Shown here piece after piece: positions 5,359 to 11,658 of a stretch of 64,000 bases of DNA. Position 1 is the first letter of the stretch. The number at the start of each line of letters is the position of its first letter. Source of the DNA: Planctomycetia bacterium (GTDB lineage: Bacteria > Planctomycetota > Phycisphaerae > UBA1845 > Fen-1342); NCBI GenBank assembly GCA_015709575.1, contig CP054190.1, positions 496,001 to 560,000 of the forward strand. The letters run 5' to 3'. A model generated the notes under the pieces. That model made no database searches. It saw nothing but the letters and a program-made list of their open reading frames with translations, and was not told the DNA's origin. A program made the translations under genes and the position numbers.

Positions 5359-8300
5359 ATGCGAAACGTTCGGATTCGACTGGCTGTCCTGCTGCTGCCG
5401 ATCCTGCTCATCCCGGCCGGCTGTGAATCCCCGCCGCGCTCGCAGCAACCGCCGGTGACGCACAAGGAAAAGCCGCGCCCGGCGCCCGAATCCCCGGCCG
5501 AGCCGCCCGCCGAGACTCCCCCGCCGCGCGTGACCGAGGCGCCGCCCGCGGCGCGCCCGCTGTACACGCTGGGCGAATCGGAGTTTGGAGACTACATCGG
5601 CCGGCTCGCGGAGCGCGAGAGCGACCCGCGGAAGCGCGTCGTCGAGATCGCCCGCGCATCGCTCGGACAACCCTACGACATCTACTTGCTCGGAGAGTTC
5701 CCCTTTGAGCTGTACGACCCCGATCCGATCTACAACCTGGCCCGCAGCGACTGCCTGACCTTCGTCGAGCATGCCTACGCCGCCGCGCTCTCGACTGACT
5801 TCATGACCTACCTGCGGGCCTTGCAGCGCATCCGTTACAAGGACGGCGTGATCGGCATGCTCACCCGCAACCATTTCACGGAAGCGGATTGGAACCCGAA
5901 TAATGCGTACCTGCTGACCGACGTCACCACCACGCTCGCCCCCGAGGCCGAGCCGGCCCACGTCCCGCTGACCCAGGTCACGCGCCGCGCCGCCTTCTTC
6001 GCGAAGTTCCGCATCGGCCAGGACATCCCCGACCAGGAACTGACCGACACCTACATCCCGTCGGCCAACGTGCCGCGCATCAGCGATGCGCTGCGCGAGG
6101 CGGACATGATTCAGATCGTCCGCGGCACGGAGGCGTCGCAATGGGTGGGGCACACCGGCTTCTTCGTTCGCGGCCCGGATGGATCGGCCAATTTCCTCCA
6201 TTCCGCCAGCCCGCAGGTGCGCGAGCAGCCGCTGACGGACTACCTGGCGAAGGACGCCCGCAGCGTCGGCATCAAGGTGCTGCGGTTGAAGGATGATCCC
6301 GTCGCGGCGATGGCGACGGCGCTGCGCGAAGCGACCTCCGCGACGCCGATCGATGAGGAGACGCTGGCCGGAGCGCTGTGCGACGCGCGGCGCGTGCTGA
6401 TGAAGCCGGCGATGGAGTCGCTGCGGGTGGATCACACCCGCCGCTGCAAGGCGGATTGGAGGGCGGCCATGAGCGTGCAGTCGCTGCGGCTGGAGGTCGA
6501 CACGCCCGTCGAGCCGGCGTTGCAGGCGGTGATCGAGCGCATCGACGCGGAGGTCGCGACGGAGCTGGGAATTCCCGACGAGAAGCGCGCCATCGGCGTG
6601 CTGGACCTGCAGACCGGGGCGTTTGCGGCGGTGCGGCCGGACGCGATCTTCTACGGCGCCAGCGTGCCGAAGATCAGCATCGCGCACGCCATGCTGGAGC
6701 GCTTCGGGCATCAATTCATGGAGTACGACCAGCTCCTGTTCGACAAGATGGGACGGATGCTCAAGCGCTCCGACAACGCCATCGCCGCCGAGTTCAGCCA
6801 GGGCGTCACGCTCGAATACATCATGGACCTGCAGTGCGGCGACAAGTACCGCTTCTATGACAAGGACCACGGCGGCCTGTGGACCGGCAAGCACTACGGC
6901 GTCGACGCGCCGCGCGTCGGCGACCCCGTCGGCGGGCATTCGCACGCCGTCACCGTCCGCCAGTGCCTGCGCTTTTACCTGCTGATGGAGCAGGGCAAGC
7001 TGGTCAACGCCCGCCTCAGCGCCACGCTGCAAGCGCTCTTCGCGTCGCCGATGCTGGCGTTTCACAACCACAACTTCGTCGCCGGGCTGCGCGGCCGAAA
7101 CGCCACGCTGATCCGCAAGAGCGGCACCTGGGAGGACTGGCACCTCGACACCGCCCGGGTGCGCCACAACGGTCGGACGTACCTGGTCGCCGGCGCGACG
7201 CACCACCCCCGTGGCGAGGACTATCTCGCGAAGGTGGCCGCCCGCATCGACGAGCACCTCTGCGTCCCCGATGACAAGCCCTGGCCCTACAGCCACGACC
7301 TCTACGTCCACGCGCTGGAGTCGGTCGAATCCGGTCTGCCGGTCAGGCGCCACATTCCTCCCGCCGGAGACATGACGGTCCGCCCCGCCGCGGGCGAGCA
7401 GCACTACACACTCGCCGCGATCCAGCCCGAATCCCCCTTCAACGAGGCGCTGGTCTCATGGAACGTCACCGCGCCGCAAGACGTGGGTTATGTGATCGAG
7501 TTCCGCGTCGGCCGCTTCGAGGAAAATCTCTGGTCGCCCTGGCTGCGCCTCGCCACGGTCGGCGCGCCGCTGCCGTCCGGCAATCCTGAGACGAGCTTCT
7601 CGCTGCGCGAGGGCGAAAACCCGCTCGGCGCGGGGCGCATCGACGTCGACTACTTCCGCTCCGACGACCAGTTCTCCGGCTACCAGGTCCGCATCCGCGC
7701 CGCGACTCAGAACGCGACGCCCGCGCTGGTGAAGCTCGACCGCGTCACCGTCTGCCTCAGCGACATGAGCGGCATCCCGCGCTCCTTCGCACCGCGCGTG
7801 ACCGACGCAGGCAATGACGCAAAGCCGGCGCCGGAGGCCGTCCGCCGACTGCCCGTGCCCTTCCGCAGCCAGCGCGTCGAGCGCAAGGAGCTGGCCGGCC
7901 GCGTGTGCAGCCCGACCTCGCTGGCGATGGTGATGGAATATCGCGGAGTAAATCACCCCACGCAGGCCGTGTGCGAGCGGGCCTTTGATCGCGCCAATGA
8001 CATCTACGGCAACTGGCCGCTGAACGTGCAGGCCGCCTTCGAGTTCGGCGTGCCGGGTATCCTGACGCGCTTCTCGAACTGGGCCGACGTGGAGCGCTGC
8101 ATCATCGCCGGCCAGCCGCTGATCATCTCGGTGCGCTCGGCCGAGCCGGGCGCGCTGCGCGGCGCCCCGTATCGTCAGACCGACGGACATTTGCTTGTTC
8201 TGTGCGGTTTTGACGCGGACGGGCGCGTCCTGGTGAATGATCCCGCCGCTCCGGACGCGGCCGCGGGCCAACTCGCCTATCACCGCGACGACCTCGAGCG

Positions 8301-8370
8301 GGCGTGGATGCGCGCGACGGGCGGCGTGGCGTACGTGCTGCTGGAGCCGCCGCAGCAGGGCGCGCCATAG
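5359..8370 (+). CDS. Three-domain cell-wall lipoprotein: DUF1460, class A beta-lactamase-like, C39-like
   Basis: A 1003-residue lipoprotein. The start at ATG 5359 has GGAG eight bases upstream and opens a type II signal peptide ending LLIPAGC (lipid Cys22). A Pro-rich linker follows. Residues about 68-310 match the DUF1460/NlpC-P60-like amidase family: Cys132 in SDCLTFVEHAYAAAL and His265 in VGHTGFFV. Residues about 380-690 carry class A beta-lactamase/DD-peptidase motifs: SVPK (435-438), SDN (471-473) and KSG (587-589). Residues about 700-825 look like a beta-sandwich of unknown family. Residues about 830-1000 are a C39-like papain fold with Cys in GRVCSPTSLAMVM and His in TDGHLLVLCGFD. All three active sites look intact. 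Peptidoglycan or cross-link hydrolysis at the envelope is inferred. A TACAAT at 5327 could be its -10 box. Confidence 0.85.
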   Translation: MRNVRIRLAVLLLPILLIPAGCESPPRSQQPPVTHKEKPRPAPESPAEPPAETPPPRVTEAPPAARPLYTLGESEFGDYIGRLAERESDPRKRVVEIARASLGQPYDIYLLGEFPFELYDPDPIYNLARSDCLTFVEHAYAAALSTDFMTYLRALQRIRYKDGVIGMLTRNHFTEADWNPNNAYLLTDVTTTLAPEAEPAHVPLTQVTRRAAFFAKFRIGQDIPDQELTDTYIPSANVPRISDALREADMIQIVRGTEASQWVGHTGFFVRGPDGSANFLHSASPQVREQPLTDYLAKDARSVGIKVLRLKDDPVAAMATALREATSATPIDEETLAGALCDARRVLMKPAMESLRVDHTRRCKADWRAAMSVQSLRLEVDTPVEPALQAVIERIDAEVATELGIPDEKRAIGVLDLQTGAFAAVRPDAIFYGASVPKISIAHAMLERFGHQFMEYDQLLFDKMGRMLKRSDNAIAAEFSQGVTLEYIMDLQCGDKYRFYDKDHGGLWTGKHYGVDAPRVGDPVGGHSHAVTVRQCLRFYLLMEQGKLVNARLSATLQALFASPMLAFHNHNFVAGLRGRNATLIRKSGTWEDWHLDTARVRHNGRTYLVAGATHHPRGEDYLAKVAARIDEHLCVPDDKPWPYSHDLYVHALESVESGLPVRRHIPPAGDMTVRPAAGEQHYTLAAIQPESPFNEALVSWNVTAPQDVGYVIEFRVGRFEENLWSPWLRLATVGAPLPSGNPETSFSLREGENPLGAGRIDVDYFRSDDQFSGYQVRIRAATQNATPALVKLDRVTVCLSDMSGIPRSFAPRVTDAGNDAKPAPEAVRRLPVPFRSQRVERKELAGRVCSPTSLAMVMEYRGVNHPTQAVCERAFDRANDIYGNWPLNVQAAFEFGVPGILTRFSNWADVERCIIAGQPLIISVRSAEPGALRGAPYRQTDGHLLVLCGFDADGRVLVNDPAAPDAAAGQLAYHRDDLERAWMRATGGVAYVLLEPPQQGAP

Positions 8371-8671
8371 CAGTCCGTTGATAAAGTCGCCGCGGCTCTG
8401 AAAAACCGCGTTATCGATAGCGCCAGCGGGGTCGAGAATGCCCCGAATGGATTTCTTCAACGGGCTGACAGGCTGCCATCGCAACAAGCCGCGCTGTAGG
8501 CCCGCCGCAGCCCGCAGCTGGTGCGGGAGTCCTTTCATGTGCTGGTGTATGTGCTGGTGCATATGCTGGTGCGAGAATCCGTTCTGTGCTGATGCGAGAA
8601 TCCTTTTTCGCACCCCGTCCGCGGGAATCCCTTCCCGCCTTGTACGACTGCATTTGCGCAATGCCGATCTT
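8371..8671. other. Non-coding, repeat-containing stretch before the IS element
   Basis: No gene is supported here. The stretch holds a block of 12-bp tandem repeats (listed separately) and two copies of GCGAGAATCC (8571-8580 and 8593-8602). Apparent small ORFs across it are made of the repeats and have no ribosome binding site. Confidence 0.6.
8537..8572. repeat. Three 12-bp tandem repeats
   Basis: The units ATGTGCTGGTGT, ATGTGCTGGTGC and ATATGCTGGTGC run head to tail. Read as protein they give MCWCMCWCICWC on one strand and an HQHMHQHI-like run on the other, but no supported gene covers them. The block is 140 bases upstream of the IS left flank. Confidence 0.75.
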
Positions 8672-8716
8672 CGACATGCTTACGCGGAGTACCGCGAAGG
8701 CATGCCACCCAACGCC
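8672..8716 (-). repeat. Dispersed repeat, IS left flank copy
   Basis: Read on the minus strand this 45-bp stretch starts GGCGTTGGGTGGCATGCC and ends AAGCATGTCG. The same sequence, with one mismatch and two extra 20-bp units, occurs on the plus strand at 15411-15495. Its last six bases, AACGCC on the plus strand, are also the outer end of the IS left inverted repeat. Confidence 0.7.
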
Positions 8717-8799
8717 GTTCACCAATCGCCCGATAGTCGGCTCATAAGTCTTTGTGATTCATGGTAGTTATAGCGGGTGTATGGCGCGCCAAATTGAAC

Positions 8800-8843
8800 G
8801 GCCTCCGTTAGGCTTTGGTTTCCACACCAAGCAAACGGAGGCC
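8800..8843 (+). promoter_or_regulatory. Hairpin burying the transposase ribosome binding site
   Basis: GGCCTCCGTT (8800-8809) pairs perfectly with AACGGAGGCC (8834-8843). Inside, TTGGT pairs with ACCAA around a short loop, lengthening the stem. The downstream arm contains the Shine-Dalgarno ACGGAGG of the transposase (ATG at 8847). A transcript entering from outside would fold and hide the site. Hairpins with this effect are known in IS10 and IS50 as protection against read-through expression; the function here is inferred from position. Confidence 0.6.
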
Positions 8844-8846
8844 GCG

Positions 8847-10160
8847 ATGGAATGCTCACGGACGAGCACCCGTTCTTCAGCGTACTGCACCCAGCTGCGT
8901 TCCGCCATTCGACAGTTTCTCCCGGTCAGCGGTTTGCCGCTGTGCTCGTCGGATCAGCGCGTTCGGTGGAGCGACCGGATGTTGCTGATCGGCCTGTTGC
9001 TGATGGTCTGGCATCCGGTCTCCTCTTTCCGCGAAGCCTTCGCGGCGATGCGTGAGCAGATCGTCGCGATGTATCCGACGCGGCGGCGGCCGGGCGCTCA
9101 TCTCGAAGGCTTCCTCAAGGCCTGGCGGACGCGTTCGGCGCGGCTGCTGCGGCCACTCGTCGCGACGCTGCGGTCTCATACGCAACGCTCGGCCGCGGGC
9201 TGTTGGCGCTGGCGGAACTGGGTGGTGCTCGGCGTGGACGGTTCGCGGGTGAATTGTCCGCGCACGCGGGCGAACGAGCAGGCGTTCGGCTGCGCCGGCA
9301 AGCAGCGCACCGCGCCGCAGCAGCTGCTGGTCACGCTCTATCACGTGGCCAGCAACCTGCCCTGGGCCTGGCGGCGCACGCGCGGCGACGGCAGCGAACG
9401 CGACCTGCTGCTGTCGATGCTGCCGGAGTTGCCGGAGCGCACGCTGCTGCTGACCGATGCGGGGCTGGTGGGCTACCGCGTGCTCACGCGCCTGCAGAAC
9501 TGCGGCCATGCGTTCATCGTGCGCGTCGGCCGGAATGTGACGCTGCTGCGCAAGCTCGGCTACCACCTGCGCGAGCGCGCGGGCGTGGTGTATCTGTGGC
9601 CCGACACGCAGCGCCGCACGCCGCCGCTGACGCTGCGACTCGTGCTGTTGCAGGCGGGGCGACAGCATGTGGCGCTGCTGACCAACGTGCTGGACGAGCG
9701 GCGGCTCAGCGCTGCGGATGTTGCCGCCCTCTACCGGCAGCGCTGGTCGCTGGAAGTGATGCATCGCACGCTGAAGCAGACGCTGGGCAAGCAAAAGCTT
9801 CGCGCCCAAACGCCGGAGCTGGCCGCGTGCGAACTCGACTGGTCGATGGCCGGTCTGTGGCTCATCAGCCTGCTGACGCACAACGCCGCCCAGCCGCCGC
9901 GATTGATCTCACCCGCCGCGGCATTGCGTGTGATCCGCACCGCCATGCGGCGCGGCCGCCGCCCAACGGGAAAACACTGGCTCCAGCGCCAACTCCGCAC
10001 CGCCGTGCCCGACTTCTACCTCCGCAGACGACCAAAGACCGCCCGCGATTGGCCGCACAAGAAAACCGAACCACCCCCCGGAACCCCCAGAATCCGCACC
10101 GCAACCACGGCCGAAATCCGCAAAGCACAGGCATTCAGAAAAGAAAAAGGAGCGGCTTAG
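8847..10160 (+). CDS. IS4-family DDE transposase
   Basis: A 437-residue transposase. The start at 8847 was chosen because ACGGAGG lies six bases before it; the frame is open further upstream but crosses the hairpin. The DDE residues are D131 in GVDGSRVNCPRT, D204 in LLLTDAGLVGY and E303. The IS4 signature Y-(2)-R-(3)-E-(6)-K is exact at Y296, R299, E303 and K310 (YRQRWSLEVMHRTLK). The frame is intact, so the element may be active. The N-terminal 120 residues would bind the ends, and the C-terminus is basic. Several planctomycete genomes carry relatives as single-copy transposase-domain genes, so domestication cannot be excluded, but the inverted repeats argue for a mobile element. Confidence 0.93.
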   Translation: MECSRTSTRSSAYCTQLRSAIRQFLPVSGLPLCSSDQRVRWSDRMLLIGLLLMVWHPVSSFREAFAAMREQIVAMYPTRRRPGAHLEGFLKAWRTRSARLLRPLVATLRSHTQRSAAGCWRWRNWVVLGVDGSRVNCPRTRANEQAFGCAGKQRTAPQQLLVTLYHVASNLPWAWRRTRGDGSERDLLLSMLPELPERTLLLTDAGLVGYRVLTRLQNCGHAFIVRVGRNVTLLRKLGYHLRERAGVVYLWPDTQRRTPPLTLRLVLLQAGRQHVALLTNVLDERRLSAADVAALYRQRWSLEVMHRTLKQTLGKQKLRAQTPELAACELDWSMAGLWLISLLTHNAAQPPRLISPAAALRVIRTAMRRGRRPTGKHWLQRQLRTAVPDFYLRRRPKTARDWPHKKTEPPPGTPRIRTATTAEIRKAQAFRKEKGAA

Positions 10161-10164
10161 TGAA

Positions 10165-10181
10165 CGGCGTTGCATGCCACC
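10165..10181 (+). repeat. Dispersed repeat, IS right flank copy
   Basis: CGGCGTTGCATGCCACC overlaps the outer end of the right inverted repeat. Its reverse complement recurs with 17 of 17 bases identical at 15384-15400. Directly after it, a related unit (GCCGCCATGCCACCCGCC) follows. Confidence 0.65.
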
Positions 10182-10635
10182 CGCCGCCATGCCACCCGCC
10201 GTTTGGGGCAACCTATCCCTCCTAAGCGGGATGGGAATCTCGCTCCAGCGCGCGCGAGATGGGAATCACGCACGAGCGAACACGCGCTCCCCCTGTGCCG
10301 CTGCCCCTGAGCAGTGCCGATTGCCGAAGACCTTTATCGATGACGCTGTTGGTTGTTTCCCGGAGTTCTGGCCCCGAAGGGGTCGCGGGTTGTAGCCACG
10401 GGTGGAGTCGCCGCGCAGCGGCGACGGAACCCGTGGACAGGTGCTCATGAAAGACGCCCCGAAGGGGCGTAGGATGCGCGAGGATCGCTATTGCACGGCC
10501 ACCCGTTACCCTAGGCTTCCCAGGGTTCGTGTCTGCCTGCGTGATCGGGCGGCGGATGACAGGAAGTTCAGCAAGCTGTCCAAACTGAGAGAAGTGCGTT
10601 CATGAGTGAACCGGACTCGCGAGGATCGATCACGT
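10172..10635. other. Non-coding stretch after the IS
   Basis: No gene is supported in these 464 bases. They hold a near-duplicate GATGGGAATC pair around 10230-10270 and the palindrome cluster at 10371-10469. Short open frames lack ribosome binding sites and family features. Confidence 0.55.
10371..10469. repeat. REP-like cluster of palindromes
   Basis: Four nested or adjacent stem-loops lie within 99 bases. GCCCC-gaa-GGGGT is at 10371-10383. CCACGGGT (10396-10403) pairs with ACCCGTGG (10429-10436). Inside that arm, GTCGCCGC-gca-GCGGCGAC is at 10407-10425. CGCCCC-gaa-GGGGCG is at 10455-10469. The form resembles extragenic palindromic repeats common in many genomes. It may also act as a transcription stop behind the IS. 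Confidence 0.6.
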
Positions 10636-11658
10636 ATGGCCTACTTTGATCTCCCCCTCGACGCGCTGCGCGAATATGCGCCGTCGATCGCGATTCCGCC
10701 GGATTTCGACGCCTTCTGGCGTCAAACGCTGGAGGAAACCGCCCGGTGCGCTCCGCTTTCGGCGGAGTTCATCGACCTGCCGGACCCGGCCTATCGCCTC
10801 GTACGCGTGCAGGACGTGAGCTTCAGCGGCTTCGGCGGCACGCGCGTCCGCGGTTGGATGATCGTTCCGGCCGACTCGGCGTTCGCGTCGGAGAACACGC
10901 TGGCTGGACCGGAGCGCCTGCCCTGCCTCGTGAGTTTTGTCGGCTACGGCGGCGGGCGCTCACTGCCGATTGACCACCTCGCTCCCGCGGTCGCGGGCAT
11001 GGCGCACTTCGTCATGGACACGCGCGGGCAGGGGGCCGGCTGGTCGATGGGGGACACGCCCGACGACGTCGGCAGCGGTCCGGCCCACACGGGCTTCCTG
11101 ACCCGCGGAGTCGAATCGCCGCAGACGTACTACTACCGCCGCGTCTTCACCGACGCCGCGCGCGCCGTCGAGGCCGCCGCGGCGCATCCGCTTGTCAATC
11201 CCGCCCGCATCGCCGTCGGCGGCGCCAGCCAGGGCGGCGGAATCGCCATCGCTGCCGCAGCGCTCGCACCGCAGCGCGTCGCGGCGCTGCTGGCGGATGT
11301 GCCCTTCCTGTGCCACGTGCGCCGCGCGGCCACCCTGACCGATCAACCGCCTTATTCCGAGCTGGCGGCCTACGCCCGCGCCCAGCGCGAGCGAACCGAT
11401 CGCGCCTTCCAGACGCTGGCCTATTTCGATTGTGCCAATCTCGTGACGCGCGTCCGCGCCCCGTCGCTCTGGTCGGCGGCGCTGATGGACCTGGTCTGCC
11501 CACCCAGCACGGTCTTCGCGGCGTTCAACCGCGCACCCGGCGCGAAAGAGATGTGCGTGTACGAGTTCAACGGCCATGAGGGCGGGGGAGCGCTGCACGC
11601 GGCGCGGCGGCTGCGCTGGCTGCAACAGCAGCTCGGAGCGCATCTGCCGCGCGCGTGA
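10636..11658 (+). CDS. Acetylxylan esterase-like hydrolase (carbohydrate esterase family 7 type)
   Basis: A 340-residue alpha/beta hydrolase of the AXE1/cephalosporin-C deacetylase family. The family hallmark RGQG is present in VMDTRGQGAGWS. The triad is S198 (GGASQGGG), D285 (MDLVCPP) and H314 (NGHEGGG). Length is normal for the family (about 320-340). The start at 10636 gives the typical opening MAYFDLPLDALREY; GAGG lies about 11 bases upstream. No signal peptide is visible, so it probably deacetylates short acetylated xylo-oligosaccharides in the cytoplasm, as family members do. It stands alone between the IS region and a convergent secreted Cys-rich protein. Confidence 0.92.
   Translation: MAYFDLPLDALREYAPSIAIPPDFDAFWRQTLEETARCAPLSAEFIDLPDPAYRLVRVQDVSFSGFGGTRVRGWMIVPADSAFASENTLAGPERLPCLVSFVGYGGGRSLPIDHLAPAVAGMAHFVMDTRGQGAGWSMGDTPDDVGSGPAHTGFLTRGVESPQTYYYRRVFTDAARAVEAAAAHPLVNPARIAVGGASQGGGIAIAAAALAPQRVAALLADVPFLCHVRRAATLTDQPPYSELAAYARAQRERTDRAFQTLAYFDCANLVTRVRAPSLWSAALMDLVCPPSTVFAAFNRAPGAKEMCVYEFNGHEGGGALHAARRLRWLQQQLGAHLPRA

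Follow-up and report, generated by a model that had tools for sequence, protein, structure and literature searches.

The gene at positions 5359 to 8370 on the forward strand of the window (the 64,000-nucleotide stretch of a planctomycete genome analyzed here) encodes one chain that carries three hydrolase domains, and the reading that all three predicted active sites are intact holds on the basis of alignments and structural models. The product is probably a membrane-anchored, single-chain processor of peptidoglycan fragments, which would strip stem peptides from (anhydro)muropeptides and trim their D-Ala ends. Processing of wall fragments is usually spread over separate proteins, whereas here a conserved chain combines three, and in relatives four, active sites. 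A peptidoglycan wall was demonstrated in planctomycetes only in 2015 (PMC4432640), and no account of planctomycete wall-recycling enzymes was found in the literature searched. The initial annotation knew of no description of these three domains in this order; none was found in that literature either, most subscription journals lying outside its reach, and the architecture is, as far as found, undescribed, the single families being already known.

Gene product and cysteine hydrolase domains

The gene is a single uninterrupted open reading frame for a 1003-residue protein, with a coding-like, strongly biased GC content by codon position (0.69/0.49/0.88) and a GGAG about 10 nucleotides 5' of the ATG, a plausible position for a ribosome site. 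It is present in a single copy in its own genome (one contig, 3.89 Mb), which to judge by its named relatives belongs with Phycisphaerae-type planctomycetes. An assembly chimera was ruled out by the identical domain order found in 12 genomes. Searches with PADLOC for defense systems, with tblastn against 50,697 phage records, and with Rfam around the gene returned no match. The initial annotation had described a single lipid-anchored chain. The single chain was borne out, while the anchor is predicted less directly: the signal peptide ends in a probable, lipobox-like LLIPAGC (Cys22) with a proline at -3, and lipid anchoring is suggested by the convincing lipoboxes of most fused relatives.

Pfam matched the protein to AmiA-like PF07313 (residues 97-299; E value, 4e-28), Peptidase_C39_2 (831-963; 4e-16) and, weakly, Beta-lactamase2 (412-458; 2e-5), and an NCBIfam search gave nothing useful. 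A full-length AlphaFold2 model built from 29 input sequences had a mean pLDDT of 78 (90 or higher for 345 residues), and a second model of residues 676-1003 reached a pLDDT of 82 and a pTM of 0.83. When these models were compared with the PDB using Foldseek, all three catalytic folds (DUF1460; PBP-A/class A; C39/papain) were retrieved, with moderate TM-scores of 0.6-0.7 on the target. The domain search and structure prediction that had been proposed as a check thus recovered every one of the three folds. Across the aligned sequences (48 AmiA, 26-30 serine, and 27 C39), none of the three sites varies in its catalytic residues except at two letters, the central D in SDN and the central S in KSG.

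The N-terminal AmiA-like/DUF1460 cysteine amidase domain occupies residues 66-325 (positions 5554..6333, + strand). Its PF07313 match (98.6 bits against a cut-off of 27) covers profile positions 2-199 of 202, which is the full domain, and the DUF1460 protein 2im9 was both its sequence match in the PDB (2e-11) and its first-ranked Foldseek match. Cys132 and His265, named beforehand as the active site, are present and 100% conserved in the 48 aligned rows, and His281 is conserved in 95%. To judge by the title of a 2014 report by Xu and colleagues, cited in PMC10318531, the DUF1460 family comprises amidases of high specificity. A catalytic Cys-His-His has been reported for DUF1460 (PMC10318531), and His281 is presumably the third catalytic member of this site. 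From its family membership, the domain is predicted to be an amidase acting on the MurNAc-L-Ala bond.

The C-terminal part of the chain comprises two further domains. A beta-sandwich that had escaped the initial annotation lies between the serine domain and the second cysteine domain (residues 680-815; positions 7396..7803, + strand), as seen from the strands of the AlphaFold2 model. It is kept, always before the C39 part, wherever the C39 module of these proteins occurs, and may be an accessory or binding domain. It is followed by a C39-like papain-fold peptidase domain (residues 825-1000; positions 7831..8358, + strand), whose PF13529 match scored 60.4 bits against a cut-off of 24. A C39-like fold with a cysteine near 850 and a histidine near 942 had been expected; the fold was recovered by Foldseek, and the residues are Cys850 and His944, the latter within two positions. 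Together with Asp961, the third triad member, they are 100% conserved in 27 aligned rows, and Gln838 is also present. Foldseek matches of the model of residues 676-1003 were 3erv (C39-like), 6mpz and 8z4n, the last being the pseudomurein endoisopeptidase PeiR, and included double-glycine peptidases such as ComA. The protein does not match a C39 exporter peptidase cleaving double-glycine leaders, as Pfam found no transporter domain in the protein and hence no ABC transporter fusion. The domain is probably a further endopeptidase, and this is the weakest step of the proposal. We know of no established wall substrate for the C39_2 family, and the present architecture would give this orphan family a functional setting.

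The PBP-A-like serine domain

Between the two cysteine domains lies a predicted PBP-A/class-A-like serine DD-peptidase domain (residues 370-640; positions 6466..7278, + strand), recognized by Pfam, profile, Foldseek and alignment. The SVPK, SDN and KSG motifs noted previously were found at S435VPK438, S471DN473 and K587SG589, corresponding to SxxK, SDN and K[ST]G. Foldseek placed PBP-A (2j7v) above all class A beta-lactamases, and a profile of the domain searched against the PDB matched PBP-A alone, weakly (E value, 0.05). In an alignment that is weak, but whose register is likely and is backed by the fold match, V524 falls on L158 of PBP-A, which is the Glu166 position of class A enzymes and the residue mutated to glutamate in the L158E structures 2j9o and 2jbf. 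All 26 aligned serine domains have V, L or I here, leaving the class A beta-lactamases' omega-loop general base without an equivalent; a natural V166, also hydrophobic, occurs in the precursor LRA-5, according to PDB structure titles.

PBP-A is both a DD-carboxypeptidase and a DD-endopeptidase, and the absent omega-loop glutamate is named as what chiefly sets it apart from the class A beta-lactamases (PMC11189452). The domain has the features of a PBP-A-like protein, namely the class A fold, SxxK/SxN/KxG, and no Glu166. Given this kinship and the missing glutamate, the serine domain is expected to be a DD-peptidase, possibly penicillin-binding, rather than a lactamase. The class A beta-lactamase-like hydrolase proposed earlier was therefore right as to fold and motifs, but an actual beta-lactamase is unlikely: with PBP-A closest and Val, Leu or Ile where class A needs Glu166, this was rejected as the main function. 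The domain may plausibly bind beta-lactams but would not be expected to turn them over. PBP-A has been reported as a cyanobacterial family (PMC11189452), and the domain would represent a predicted PBP-A-like DD-peptidase outside the cyanobacteria.

The same residues bear on whether the protein is a device for beta-lactam or glycopeptide tolerance, in which the serine domain would trap or hydrolyze beta-lactams with DdpX/VanX-type enzymes and an AXE1 esterase as partners. Such a device would fit the class A fold with its three motifs, the VanX-type domain found in relatives, and the neighboring AXE1 gene, whose family includes cephalosporin C deacetylases; however, the hydrophobic Glu166 position is shared with PBP-A and LRA-5, AmiA and Amidase_3 make little sense as partners, and the gene neighborhood showed no Van ligase genes. 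We regard tolerance as highly improbable.

Domain arrangements and gene neighbors in relatives

To survey other planctomycetes for the same domain order, as the initial annotation had suggested, 114 genomes of the same order were searched, together with thin and partly overlapping samples of 198 genomes of the class and 148 of the phylum. AmiA, serine, sandwich and C39 domains were found in one chain in 12 of the 114 order genomes (families f1, f2 and f8), and two of these (G068 and G092) also carry an M15 D-Ala-D-Ala dipeptidase at the C terminus, which brings the chain to four enzymes. Other arrangements in the order were AmiA-serine-M15 (4), AmiA-serine (4), NAGPA-serine-C39 (3), serine-C39 (2), AmiA-C39-M15 (1), S9 peptidase-C39 (1), Amidase_3-serine (1, in G080), and free serine domains (5), NAGPA being a phosphodiester glycosidase. 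The three-enzyme chain was absent from the thin, overlapping class and phylum samples, which yielded the modules separately and, in G322, a single serine-C39 fusion. The M15 dipeptidase is fused in G033, G053, G103 and G105, in G068 and G092, and in G050, and is encoded directly downstream in G080 and G107; with E. coli DdpX these domains share 39% identity as well as the metal-site and Arg positions.

In domain trees, architectures cluster (8-9 changes, against 15-19 with shuffled labels), with many deep forks unresolved, a pattern that suits few fusions followed by later gains and losses. The branch leading to the window protein is long; this copy could be drifting, though all its catalytic residues are kept. 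The serine domain is accompanied by AmiA or C39 in the genome in 29 of 29 genomes, and all five genomes with free-standing serine domains have a C39 module (Fisher P value of 1.4e-4, uncorrected for descent), a co-occurrence confounded by common descent. Amidase_3 is a family of zinc N-acetylmuramoyl-L-alanine amidases with a fold unrelated to AmiA. The best argument that the pairing of an amidase with a DD-peptidase is the point is the Amidase_3-serine fusion in G080, as judged from predicted domains.

In the Amidase_3 fusion (L079, 1808-3958), Amidase_3 is joined to the same PBP-A-like serine domain, AmiA being swapped for an unrelated fold with the same predicted bond specificity, and in the S9 fusion (L089, 3142-6273), a prolyl-oligopeptidase-type S9 enzyme is fused to the sandwich-C39 module.

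These arrangements also bear on a role in growth or division, in which the protein would work on the sacculus itself, cleaving its cross-links and septal peptides, rather than on soluble fragments. An amidase, a DD-endopeptidase and a peptidase would be enough for such remodeling, and in other bacteria the Amidase_3 family supplies septal amidases. Against this stand the reported high specificity of the DUF1460 family, the action of DdpX-type partners on small peptides, and the lack of a SPOR/LysM-type binding domain in the window protein by Pfam, and we consider remodeling distinctly improbable. The initial annotation had pictured the processing of cross-links at one site; wall-fragment processing is better supported, because the further modules of relatives are a DdpX/VanX-type dipeptidase, NAGPA or Amidase_3.

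Downstream of the gene in the window lies an insertion sequence (DDE_Tnp_1; 8703..10179, + strand) with imperfect inverted-repeat arms at 8703-8725 and 10157-10179. About ten full copies with 98-100% identity, plus many short end-fragments, occur in the genome, suggesting recent activity and MITE-like remnants. The element splits the three-enzyme gene from an AXE1/CE7-type esterase gene (10606..11658, + strand; PF05448, 4e-95) that adjoins it directly in relatives: AXE1 is directly 3' on the same strand in G001, G015, G017 and G026 and just upstream in G106, and an AXE1-NAGPA pair lies 2-4 kb from the gene in G012. Our guess is that AXE1 removes O-acetyl groups from MurNAc. A ~90-bp dispersed repeat with palindromic ends (8371-8480; about ten copies genome-wide) begins directly past the stop codon and folds well (z score of -2.1), with no Rfam match, and a second dispersed repeat of ~110 bp, present in some 20 or more copies, lies at 10359-10480.

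Among the relatives, SpoIID, of a wall glycan cutter family, is encoded next to the AmiA-serine gene of G007, and G014 has a matching neighbor; NagB-like and ROK genes adjoin other members of the family, and an SSF symporter is among the neighbors. Near fused genes, L086 (4037-6484) and its relatives encode an 816-residue protein without a Pfam match that is 65-78% identical across genomes; a homologue at L080 (2751-5171) has weak PIG-L/NagB-like matches. No peptidoglycan-recycling operon surrounds the window gene, and the idea of one downstream was dropped, the G017 genes past AXE1 being a response regulator, GAPDH, PGK and others.

The neighbors are of interest for scavenging, in which an outward-facing lipoprotein would digest muropeptides from other bacteria as a food source instead of recycling the cell's own wall. 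A heterotrophic life in mixed communities is common among Phycisphaerae, and both the predicted lipid anchor and the frequent proximity of the modules to genes that handle sugars or solutes (AXE1, SSF symporter, NagB-like, ROK) would suit it. The domain set, however, is that of ordinary recycling, most genomes hold one copy, and no degradative locus lies around the window gene; scavenging appears unlikely.

Predicted role and comparison with known systems

In the fragment-processing role that we favor, the AmiA domain would cut the (anhydro-)MurNAc/L-Ala bond and free the stem peptide, the PBP-A-like domain would cleave D-Ala-D-X bonds via an acyl-Ser435, as a DD-carboxypeptidase and/or DD-endopeptidase, and the C39-like domain with its beta-sandwich would probably be an endopeptidase cutting within the stem peptide or the cross-bridge. 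The D-Ala-D-Ala end would be handled by the fused or adjacent DdpX-type dipeptidase in relatives and by the product of a separate gene in the window genome. We infer these substrates, as well as the order of the cuts, the anchoring, the direction, and the self-recycling purpose. Possible but rather doubtful is the bolder reading of a single-chain muropeptide assembly line outside the cytoplasm, with C39_2 as a new class of stem-peptide endopeptidase replacing NlpC/P60 and with DdpX, NAGPA and Amidase_3 as plug-in modules.

The window genome (G000) has a free DdpX-type gene (contig C1, ~143.7 kb) and LdcA. NLPC_P60 (PF00877) had no match in this genome and matched in 9 of 14 control genomes. 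At L108 (733-2814; C1, ~1681.9 kb), the same genome also encodes a NAGPA domain followed by an unrecognized C-terminal region of ~250 residues. If the proposal is true, the conserved chain and the free swapping of modules within a single theme would show how a planctomycete lineage handles muropeptides, and the domains form a set ready for assays.

Each domain has a known counterpart. The N-terminal domain resembles the DUF1460/AmiA-like amidases of the NlpC/P60 clan (Legionella 2im9, Bacteroides-type 2p1g, and 4h4j/4q5k/4q68) by Pfam, sequence and fold, with invariant Cys and His; the members with solved structures are single catalytic proteins, whereas here the domain is one of three. The serine domain has its best fold match and only profile match in PBP-A of Thermosynechococcus, with which it shares SxxK, SxN, KxG and the hydrophobic Glu166 position, but identity is ~17%, the domain is fused, and its family has W508xGK, DP[LV] and S528H529 motifs of its own. 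The C39 domain has its fold and C/H/D triad in common with C39_2/C39-like papain folds (3erv) and PeiR (8z4n), but lies behind a conserved beta-sandwich and is unlinked to an ABC exporter. For the chain as a whole, location and bonds are expected to be like those of E. coli AmiD, an outer-membrane anhMurNAc-L-Ala amidase lipoprotein, and DdpX, to which the dipeptidase domains of relatives are related. AmiD has a zinc fold unrelated to the AmiA-like domain, and in E. coli the activities reside on separate proteins.
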